A DNA stretch of 64,000 nt from Chamaelirium japonicum (lineage: Eukaryota; Streptophyta; Magnoliopsida; Liliales; Melanthiaceae). Below are positions 38,209 through 41,208 of this stretch, in pieces. Position 1 is the stretch's first letter. Each line of letters starts with the position of its first letter. Both the position numbers and the translations under genes were made by a program. Under the pieces are notes generated by a model that made no database searches, was not told the origin of the DNA, and saw only the letters and a program-made list of their open reading frames with translations. The stretch is from assembly GCA_947650365.1 (NCBI GenBank), contig OX393557.1, positions 3,063,045 to 3,127,044 on the forward strand. Direction: 5' to 3'.

Positions 38209-38513
38209 CCTTAGAGGGTTTAGAATGTGCTGATTTTTTGCGGATGTAAGCCCTTGTTTGATAACGCTGATCTGGAAATCGGAGTGGATGGCAGTTTTGC
38301 TGAAACGTGCACTGCTGCAATGGGTTTCGCTGAAAAGTGCATCCGAGCCTCGCGGTACGATGGAATTTTTCACTATTTGGATGAAAAGCGGGTCCAAGTG
38401 AAACCACTTCAGCATTATCAACATACGAATTATGATAAAAACTTGAAATTTCAGCCTTATCAAACAAGGGCTAAACATTTACAAAAAATCGACACATTCT
38501 AAAACTTCTAGGG
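38209..38513. mobile_element. Foldback element next to microsatellite chain
   Basis: The left arm (TTTAGAATGTGCTGATTTTT, then AGCCCTTGTTTGATAA) is the near-complement of the right arm (TTATCAAACAAGGGCT, then AAAAATCGACACATTCTAAA). Arms span about 130 bp. The GTTTTAGAAT...GATTTTTTG word is shared with the element at 39342-39707. The right end abuts (TC)n; the left end does not lie in a microsatellite. Confidence 0.7.
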
Positions 38514-38515
38514 GG

Positions 38516-38928
38516 ATTATCTCTCTCTCTCTCTCTCTCTCTCTCTCTCTCTATATATATATATATATATATATATATATATATATATATATATATATAT
38601 ATATATATATATATATATATATATATATATATATATAGAGAGAGAGAGAGAGAGAGAGAGAGAGAGATGATAAAATGTGGCATGCAGTGTTGCACCGCAG
38701 CCGTCTGATGCACCGCTGCGTGCATCGCACGCATCGCTGCAGTGCATTAGACAGCTGCGGTGCGAAGCCGCACACGCCGCAGCCAACACGCCTTTTCTCT
38801 CTCTCTCTCTCTCTCTCTCTCTCTCTCTCTATATATATATATATATATATATATATATATATATATATATATATATATATATATATATATATATATATAT
38901 ATATATATATATATATATATATATATAT
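38516..38928. repeat. (TC)n-(TA)n-(GA)n arrays around a hairpin cassette
   Basis: (TC)n 38521-38551, (TA)n 38552-38637 and (GA)n 38638-38666. Then cassette 38667-38795, then (TC)n 38796-38829 and (TA)n 38830-38928. The cassette has arms around GCAGCCGTCTGATGCACCGC and ends CAACACGCC. GA to the left and TC to the right extend the palindrome. Confidence 0.9.
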
Positions 38929-39205
38929 GGGGAGGGATACTCTTACTCATGGCCTCTTACTCATATAGTTACCTATGATCCAGGCCGTCCATTAGATCCC
39001 GACGTATGGTTCGGACTAGATAGGGAGTTAAAGCAATGGTGTCCGCATTAAATGCGGGCTTTTAATACAGGCTTTTAATACGGGCATTTAACGCGGACAC
39101 CATTGCTTTTACTCCCCATCTAATCCGAACCGTACATCGGGATCTAATGGATGGCCCGGATCATAGGTATGAGTAAGAGGCCATGAGTAAGAGTATCCCT
39201 CCCCT
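38929..39205. mobile_element. 277-bp palindromic element between TA arrays
   Basis: The ends GGGGAGGGATACTCTTACTC and the exact complement at 39186-39205 begin arms of about 135 bp. The arms include ATCCAGGCCGTCCATTAGAT and CAATGGTGTCCGC with few mismatches. Both sides are long TA arrays. The same terminus ends the element at 1-647. Confidence 0.88.
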
Positions 39206-39341
39206 ATGTATATATATATATATATATATATATATATATATATATATATATATATATATATATATATATATATATATATATATATATATATATATATATA
39301 TATATATATATATATATATATATATATATATATATATATAT
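39206..39341. repeat. (TA)n microsatellite
   Basis: About 65 nearly pure TA units separating two different foldback elements. Confidence 0.95.
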
Positions 39342-39707
39342 GGTAGTGATCGAGTGAGTTATGAAATATATGAGATAACTTTGAGAACCCTATCTAGAGG
39401 TTTTAGAGTTTGATGAAAATTGGTGGGCATGCTCTCTATGACAAGTTGATCATTCTCACCAAAAATCATCAAATTCTAAAACCTCTTAAGGGCATCAAAT
39501 GTTAGAAGATTTATCGACCGACTATTAAAACCAATAATTTGAATTGTGTATTTGATGCCTCTAGAGGTTTTAGAATTTGATGATTTTTTGTGAGGATGAT
39601 CAACTTGTCATAGAGAGCATGCTCACCAATTTTCATCAAATTCTAAAACATCTAGATAGGTTTCTCAAAGTTATCTCATAGAAGAGTTATCTCACTGGAT
39701 CGTTATC
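39342..39707. mobile_element. 366-bp palindromic element between TA arrays
   Basis: The left arm (GAGATAACTTTGAGAACCCT, CATGCTCTCTATGACAAGTT, CTCACCAAAAATCATCAAAT) is mirrored by the right arm in reverse order. Each arm is about 160 bp, around an AT-rich centre. It has no coding capacity. It is flanked by (TA)n on both sides. Confidence 0.88.
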
Positions 39708-39754
39708 ATATATATATATATATATATATATATATATATATATATATATATATA

Positions 39755-39898
39755 GGGGCATGCTATAATGCGGTAAGTGCGGCATCACATCGCAGCCGTC
39801 TGATGCACCCGCTGTGTGCATCGCATGCACGCAGCGGTGCATCAGATGATTGTAGTGCAGTGCCACACTTACCGCATGCCGCATTATAGCATGCCCCT
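39755..39898. mobile_element. TA-bounded hairpin cassette, best-preserved copy
   Basis: 144 bp. GGGGCATGCTATAATGCGGT at the left is met by GCATTATAGCATGCCCC at the right, and TAAGTGCGGCA by TGCCACACTTA. The core is CAGCCGTCTGATGCAC facing GTGCATCAGA. Only a few bases are unpaired, so it would form a very stable hairpin. (TA)n lies on both sides (39708-39754 and 39899-39970). Confidence 0.88.
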
Positions 39899-39970
39899 AT
39901 ATATATATATATATATATATATATATATATATATATATATATATATATATATATATATATATATATATAT

Positions 39971-40080
39971 GGGCATGCTTTGCTGCGGGCTGCGGTCCGC
40001 ATCCGCAGCCGTCCGATGCCGCGCGCGCGGTGCGGTGCATCGCATCGGACGGCTGCAGGTGCGGACCGCATTTAAGCATT
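39971..40080. mobile_element. TA/TC-bounded hairpin cassette, divergent copy
   Basis: 110 bp: GGGCATGCTTTGCTGCGGGC at the left. A GCGGTCCGCATCCGCAGCCG arm faces the complementary CGGCTGCAGGTGCGGACCGC around a GCGCGCGC centre. The borders are (TA)n on the left and (TC)n then (TA)n on the right. Confidence 0.8.
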
Positions 40081-40203
40081 TCTCTCTCTCTCTCTCTCTC
40101 TCTCTATATATATATATATATATATATATATATATATATATATATATATATATATATATATATATATATATATAGAGAGAGAGAGAGAGAGAGAGAGAGA
40201 GAG
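40081..40203. repeat. (TC)n-(TA)n-(GA)n arrays
   Basis: (TC)n 40080-40105, (TA)n 40106-40173, (GA)n 40174-40203, in the order expected for an inverted-repeat microsatellite block. Confidence 0.93.
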
Positions 40204-41114
40204 AATACGGGGTATGAGCTGACAGCCCAATTTCAATTTAGGCTGTCAGCTGCTAGCCGTTCGATTCAATCGATCATATCCGTCCGATCAAAAAATAAAA
40301 AACCACTCAATCCTCTCTCTCTCTCACAGTAATCCACGATCCCACTCTCTCTGGTTCGCTGAGAGAATACCGCCGCCGCCGTCAACCTCTCCCTCTCCCC
40401 CGACCTCCCGATCCAGCCCCCCGTCGCTCCCCCTCCCTCCTCCTGCGCCGTCCCGATCGTCATCCTCTCCGGCGGCACAACGAACCCCGGCAGCCCTCTT
40501 CATCCTCTCCGGCGGCACAACGAACCCCGGCAGCCCTCCGACCACCTGCCCCCTCCTGCTCTGTCCACCAGCTGCCTCGGACCACCGGCCCCCTACTGCG
40601 CCGTCCACCGGCAGCCCTCTTCATCCCCTCCGGCGGCACAGTGAACCCCGGCAGCCCTCAAACCGCCCCCTCCGGCTCCGGCAGTACCTCCGACCACCGG
40701 CCCCGTCCTGCTCCGTCCACCGGCTGCCTCCGACCACCGGCCCCCTCCTGCTCCGTCCACTGGCAGCCCCGACACCGACAGCACCCCCTCCGCCCCGATC
40801 TTCATCGCCGATTGCCCGATCTTCGTCCCCGATCGCAGCCGCCGGGGTTCACTGTGCCGCCGGAAGGGATGATGATCGGGACGGCGCCGGAGGAGGGAGA
40901 GGGAGCGACGGGGGGCTGACGGGGGAGGGGGAGAGGTTGAAGGCGACGGCGGGTCGAACCAGAGAGAGAGAGAGGGGGATCGTGGATAACAGTGAGAGAG
41001 AGAGGATTAAGTGTTTTTTTTGTTTTTTGATCGGACGGATATGATCGATTGAATCGAACGGCTAGCAGCTGACAGCCTAAATTAAAATTGGGCTGTCAGC
41101 TCATACCCCGTATT
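40204..41114. mobile_element. 911-bp foldback element with about 300-bp arms
   Basis: The left end AATACGGGGTATGAGCTGAC is matched exactly by the complement at the right end. The first about 135 bp of each arm are nearly identical (GCTAGCCGTTCGATTCAATC, ATCCGTCCGATCAAAAAA). Similarity continues through a pyrimidine-rich then GC-rich zone to about 40500 on the left and 40820 on the right (GGCGGCACA, AACCCCGGC). The middle has repeated TCCGGCGGCACA and CGACCACCGGCCCC units. Open frames here lack codon bias and follow the repeats. It is bordered by (GA)n on the left and (TC)n on the right. No transposase or obvious target duplication outside the microsatellites. Confidence 0.85.
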
Positions 41115-41208
41115 CTCTCTCTCTCTCTCTCTCTCTCTCTCTCTCTCTCTATATATATATATATATATATATATATATATATATATATATATATATATAT
41201 ATATATAT
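41115..41208. repeat. (TC)n-(TA)n arrays closing the chain
   Basis: (TC)n 41115-41150 then (TA)n 41151-41208, the right border of the 3-kb microsatellite/foldback chain. Confidence 0.93.

Follow-up and report, generated by a model that had tools for sequence, protein, structure and literature searches.

How do seven foldback elements come to lie end to end, with little but microsatellite between them? The question is raised by a short segment of the 64,000-nucleotide stretch of Chamaelirium japonicum DNA that we analysed (hereafter the window; positions 3063045-3127044 of its contig, in an assembly of 1.52 Gb in 3253 contigs). In our reading, small foldback MITEs, non-autonomous and of the SaTar, Micron and mMITE kind, inserted into (TA)n tracts and came to form the stack seen in this segment; we put the probability of this reading at roughly 85%.

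A chain of foldback units joined by microsatellites

Analysis of the sequence, of its inverted repeats and of its tandem repeats finds seven palindromic units in a row from 38201 to 41113, linked by (TA)n arrays of 47 to 133 bp, some of which are edged by (TC)n and (GA)n. The chain is laid out below in window coordinates, with no strand assigned to any feature.

38201..38519, U1: palindrome with hairpin-core arms at both ends; the left arm starts near 38201 and the left flank has no microsatellite
38520..38667, (TC)n(TA)n(GA)n junction between U1 and U2: tandem repeats
38668..38795, U2: family A palindrome
38796..38928, (TC)n(TA)n junction: tandem repeats
38929..39204, U3: palindromic MITE with ends GGGGAGGGATACTC...
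39205..39341, (TA)n junction: tandem repeats
39342..39707, U4: palindrome with hairpin core
39708..39754, (TA)n junction: tandem repeats
39755..39897, U5: family A palindrome with ends GGGGCATGCTATAATGCGG...
39898..39970, (TA)n junction: tandem repeats
39971..40080, U6: family A-like palindrome with unlike ends, GGGCATGC and (GA)nAAATGC
40081..40204, (TC)n(TA)n(GA)n junction: tandem repeats
40205..41113, U7: inverted repeats of about 290 bp (ATACGGGGTATGAGCTGACAGCC...) flanking a GC-rich interior
41114..41208, (TC)n(TA)n, right edge of the chain: tandem repeats

Palindromes were sought across the whole window with microsatellites masked, requiring arms of at least 30 nt, at least 75% identity and a span of at most 1 kb. 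Eighteen were found, compared to none in each of five mononucleotide shuffles, which are a weak control. The 18 include six of the chain's units but not U5, whose self-match of about 73% falls below the cut. On these counts we rejected chance as the source of the palindromes. The chain is real, and chance does not explain it.

The seven units represent about five families. U2, U5 and U6 match one another (family A), U1 and U4 have a 41-bp hairpin arm in common, and U3 and U7 each stand alone. Neighbours belong to different families at five of the six junctions, which rules out simple tandem duplication. The original prediction had described seven palindromes, at least four of them different in sequence, as a chain of unrelated elements that did not arise by such duplication and whose boundaries coincide with the array edges. 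The chain and the argument against tandem duplication both hold. The units are unrelated in the sense that some five families share one chain, but not in the sense of seven separate elements, since U2, U5 and U6 match and U1 and U4 share an arm; the variety is thus smaller than claimed. TA, GA or TC runs bound every unit except on the left side of U1, which abuts ordinary DNA.

The same prediction knew of no described case of such variety in one chain, and this was wrong. SaTar arrays, multimeric linear arrays in which microsatellites join unrelated elements, were reported from guayule, rice, sorghum and citrus in 2018 (PMC5907723), and clusters of microsatellite-associated MITEs from pineapple in 2021 (PMC8449440). 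As in the available SaTar description, the elements here are repetitive, carry inverted repeats and are mostly flanked by microsatellite, chiefly (TA)n (U1 aside), and elements of different families form linear arrays joined by microsatellite (PMC5907723). The pineapple elements (Ac-mMITE) also lie in non-nested (TA)n clusters, although these involve two related families compared to about five in our single chain (PMC8449440). By description, the rice Micron is likewise a MITE in (TA)n (PMC5907723; PMC12550479, a survey of 207 genomes). MuTAnT of Medicago truncatula is, again by description, a 292-bp foldback element in TA tracts with GGGG/CCCC ends, four similar segments and empty sites of about nine TA repeats; it differs in being one family with a putative autonomous element, and in its 9-bp duplication, which we did not see here (PMC4486113). 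Between the accessible parts of these three accounts (PMC5907723, PMC8449440, PMC4486113), the architecture, the GA/TC polarity and the kind of empty site presented below are already described, and the chain is not new in kind.

Like insertions, family A included, occur elsewhere in the window at about 559-1260, 19149-19569 and 23383-23681. At 1-649 there seems to be the right-hand portion of a larger element, which ends in a U3-type terminus at 649 and whose interior, GC-rich and tandemly repeated, begins before the window. There are 12 open reading frames of at least 150 aa in the window; of three scanned against Pfam, two gave nothing and one gave Ty3-type retrotransposon domains (11753-14179, a reading frame with gag and capsid-like domains). 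A tRNA scan of the window found none, and the sole Rfam match was a borderline 5S ribosomal RNA at 20516-20634 (40.6 bits, gathering score 38).

Family copies and array edges across the genome

Dispersed copies bounded by TA, as foreseen in the original prediction, are found for most of the chain: four of the five families have copies elsewhere in the 1.52-Gb assembly, mostly inside TA tracts, and U1 has no full-length relative in the sequences examined. U3 without its flanks, used as a genome query, returned 1935 first-look candidates, among which 40 scored places (the window included) match at 93-100% over full or near-full length; 30 fetched copies are 88-99% identical to one another (median 92%). 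We counted flanks in 52 de-duplicated sequences, that is, 51 of 68 loci (designated by L numbers) plus the window, whose own copies are counted. The loci are mostly best-scoring copies, so young copies are over-represented.

TA lies on both sides of 32 of the 33 full-length U3 copies, 8/8 of U7, 2/2 of U4 and 2/2 of U6. For family A the counts are 19/25 with U5 as query and 5/6 with U2, two sets that may overlap; the exceptions are mainly fused neighbours or long GA/TC runs that the scan did not pass. The only full-length U1 copy, the window's own, has microsatellite on one side only (0/1). Eight further U4 copies, fetched from about 30 places given by a query that included the arrays, are all about 95% identical with TA on both sides, L082 having a few extra bases. 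Among the sequences examined, no copy of U3, U4 or U7 lies clearly outside TA/GA tracts. The seven window units and the 33 full-length U3 copies are uninterrupted by other elements, and partial copies also exist.

The chain form, seen in the window and at locus L026 (discussed below), is also widespread: 42 of the 51 non-window loci contain at least three TA arrays of at least 20 bp, and 26 contain at least five, with a maximum of eight. Six arbitrarily placed 4-kb stretches, taken as a control, contain two such arrays, both in one stretch (L072) that proved to be another chain with a family A element. These numbers bear on the possibility that the chain is an assembly artefact. Assembly of long TA tracts is difficult, but dozens of loci across 12 contigs, and one of the six arbitrary samples, share this architecture, which makes an artefact extremely improbable.

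Some relatives of U7 match in their ends only, and in one U7 copy about 2.85 kb of other DNA separates the two parts. In a search for an autonomous partner among the U7 matches, the split pairs viewed by eye were about 3 kb or shorter. U7 (40205-41113) and L060-L065 have similar ends around different GC-rich interiors, a pattern that we take to be like that of Mutator-like elements that pick up host sequence.

Could these elements instead be Tc1/mariner (Stowaway-type) MITEs, whose ordinary TA duplication would make TA tracts likely targets by composition alone? The elements do insert at TA, and within a TA tract the duplication of a single TA could not be seen. Stowaway elements, however, end in CTCCCTCC, and the ends here are mostly G-first (GGGG, GGGT, GAGA): GGGG for U3 and U5, GG(T/A) or GATA for U4 and GA for U7. 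None of the 33 full-length U3 copies sits at an isolated TA, and the published relatives have 9-10 bp duplications, as far as they are described (PMC4486113, PMC8449440). We therefore regard a Tc1/mariner origin as unlikely.

The edges of the arrays provide a further line of evidence. Outward from 468 TA-array edges, the adjoining run is GA at 105, GT at 6, TC at 1 and AC at 1, and at 354 edges the first base is G. GA/TC runs next to TA tracts are, in the window, confined to the side that faces an element. An element inserted into a GA tract would be flanked by GA on either side, read on the same strand. Given 105 GA compared to 1 TC, GA/TC tracts were ruled out as insertion targets. The GA/TC runs seem to have grown out of the GA/TC ends that belong to the elements themselves. 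The pineapple MITEs have the same arrangement, with GA at the 5' and TC at the 3' side, put down to slippage of GA/TC ends (PMC8449440).

Polarity also bears on the proposal made for guayule SaTars, in which circular intermediates carrying microsatellite filler recombine homologously with existing microsatellite (PMC5907723). This would be in keeping with the non-TA runs between element and TA tract, with target duplications that are not readable and with TA being one-sided at some edges. However, filler gives no reason why GA should face outward at 105 of 106 GA/TC edges, and growth of the element's own GA end is simpler, as argued for pineapple in the portion available (PMC8449440). It seems to us improbable that circles built the chain.

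One landing site, empty and filled

Insertion into pre-existing TA tracts, the reading that we favour, can be followed at a single site that is present in several states. When flanks were compared, five U3 loci proved to have the same surroundings as one TA tract of the window that holds no element, namely those of another MITE that acts as host.

26509..26867, forward (+) strand, host MITE: 8-bp target-site duplication GTTTACAG; the internal (TA)9 at 26607-26624 is the empty landing site

The host is about 360 bp long and has the ends CTATGAT...ATCATAG. Seven copies are present in the sequence searched, each with its own perfect 8-bp duplication, which indicates separate insertions of the host; the 8-bp length suggests a hAT element. 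The same internal site is empty in two copies, containing (TA)9 in the window (18 bp) and (TA)6(CA)5 in L003 (12 bp of TA, 10 bp of CA). It holds U3 alone in L010 and L019, a 297-bp GGGTCAGG element followed by U3 in L018 and L031, and five elements in L026, where 2242 bp are inserted (elements of 762, 282, 386 and 143 bp and one with U3-type ends). Judged by their ends, the L026 neighbours belong to different families at all four junctions.

The U3 copies in L010, L019, L018 and L031 are 97.5-99.3% identical, and we therefore read them as a single insertion carried along when the host moved; in these four, about 13 bp of the host are also missing next to the tract. The composite appears to have moved as a whole. 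The U3 of L026 is 94.3-95.4% identical to the other four and 97.2% to a copy elsewhere (L023), and the hosts in this comparison are 85-89% identical. Because this U3 is closer to L023 than to those in the four other hosts, and the hosts are 11-15% apart, we read it as an independent colonisation.

TA tracts are longer where elements are present. The arrays at the host site measure 70+74 and 70+110 bp with one element, 80+105+82 and 100+15+78 bp with two, and 104+13+124+27+39 bp with five (L026), so that 11 of the 15 arrays in occupied copies are 70-124 bp long and four are short (13, 15, 27 and 39 bp). In the window, TA arrays touching an element have a median of 70 bp (n=15), compared to 16, 16, 18 and 50 bp for those that touch none (n=4).

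The elements might then have made the tracts rather than targeted them, with palindromes seeding (TA)n at their ends and the chain growing by outgrowth or local duplication. Most arrays that adjoin an element are several times longer than those in the two empty sites, and GA runs appear to grow at element ends, as this view would have it. Yet TA is already present in both empty copies (18 and 12 bp; 2/2), and the change of family at 5/6 window junctions and, by ends, at 4/4 in L026 speaks against local duplication. We find it very unlikely that the tracts originated in this way. Of the two possibilities raised in the original prediction, TA tracts as landing sites for several foldback families are borne out, both by the family copies in TA tracts elsewhere and by the two paralogous empty sites with only short TA or TA/CA. 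Growth of (TA)n at element ends is retained in part: most arrays in the occupied copies are longer, and in the window the GA/TC runs beside TA tracts face the elements. SaTar sites in rice are likewise found empty with only a TA tract, there in orthologous positions and here in paralogous ones (2/2), and array expansion after insertion is discussed in the same account (PMC5907723).

What we observe, then, is the chain, copies of its families in other TA tracts, one site in both empty and occupied form, and a one-sided GA polarity. Under insertion into TA tracts, an element would enter a (TA)n tract and split it. Because TA would be left on either side, the next element would land beside the first, not inside it. 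The TA tracts would afterwards lengthen, probably by slippage, and a G-A at the element end would expand to (GA)n, read as TC on the opposite strand. As different families landed again and again, a non-nested chain would result, and the window chain would presumably have been built in such an order of events. Movement itself would be by cut-and-paste, with a Mutator-like transposase acting in trans. For SaTars, a Mutator link is drawn from 10-bp duplications and an autonomous partner (PMC5907723), unlike the present case, in which none of the copies among the sequences examined showed a 9-10 bp target duplication.

A few sites fit less well. The left side of U1 and the right side of the family A element in L072 adjoin ordinary DNA that has no TA, an arrangement not expected from simple insertion into a TA tract. 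In L035, just TATAT (5 bp) separates two U3 copies, less than a 9-bp duplication, and the right-most element of L026 lies between a (CA)n and a (TA)n run. A 9-10 bp duplication is absent at each of these four places (U1 left, L072, L035, L026). The guayule authors report a similar misfit (PMC5907723).

L015 and L017 have the same neighbour beside the TA tract, ending in a short hairpin plus ACTAGT. Such an end is like the 3' end of a Helitron, so transposons of other types may use TA tracts as well.

A hairpin core shared between families

The arm common to U1 and U4 extends well beyond these two units. A search with this 41-nt core arm (U4, window 39550-39590) gave 196 matches in 44 of 66 sequences: 165 in TA-bounded units, 29 close to the end of a locus with no array farther out, and 2 elsewhere. 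Eight of the 66 sequences had been fetched as U4 copies, so these counts are not an unbiased sample. Within the window, core arms lie at 38201-38240, 38482-38517 and 39393-39656 (U1 and U4); no match was found in the window outside the chain or in the 24 kb of control sequence. At a looser cut-off, 239 ungapped copies are present as hairpin arms; 64 of 203 TA-bounded units contain at least one of these copies, and 27 contain four. The core consists of the arm ATTTGATGCCTCTAGAGGTTTTAGAATTTGATGATTTTTTG and its partner.

The cores are enclosed by different ends. For 61 core-bearing units of at most 700 bp, the ends fall by a crude measure into 40 clusters, nine of which hold at least two units; 39 units have both ends in one cluster. 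Two of the nine overlap, both holding U4-type ends, and given the crudeness of the measure we speak, with caution, of about eight end types. U3-type ends, in turn, surround other interiors in L013, L022 and L028 and at window 559-649. A core shared across about eight end types is less expected than the chain itself. We found no mention of a core common to elements with different ends in the available portions of the SaTar description (PMC5907723) or of PMC8449440 and PMC4486113, nor did we meet in these SaTar, mMITE and MuTAnT accounts, to the extent available, a series of empty and occupied host-MITE copies.

It is tempting to speculate that the foldback families are recombinants that exchange ends and cores rather than independent lineages with a common target, that TA tracts are, besides landing sites, where neighbours become fused and reshuffled into new families, and that MITEs of the host type, with 8-bp duplications, can disperse the resulting assemblies. 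We offer this tentatively and consider it doubtful as a whole. The shared core would matter if such chains do generate new transposon families. The replicated host site, with none, one, two or five elements, lets one read directly in which order elements inserted and how the tracts grew. With this window, Chamaelirium adds a further genome in support of TA microsatellites as landing sites common to several families of mini-transposons.
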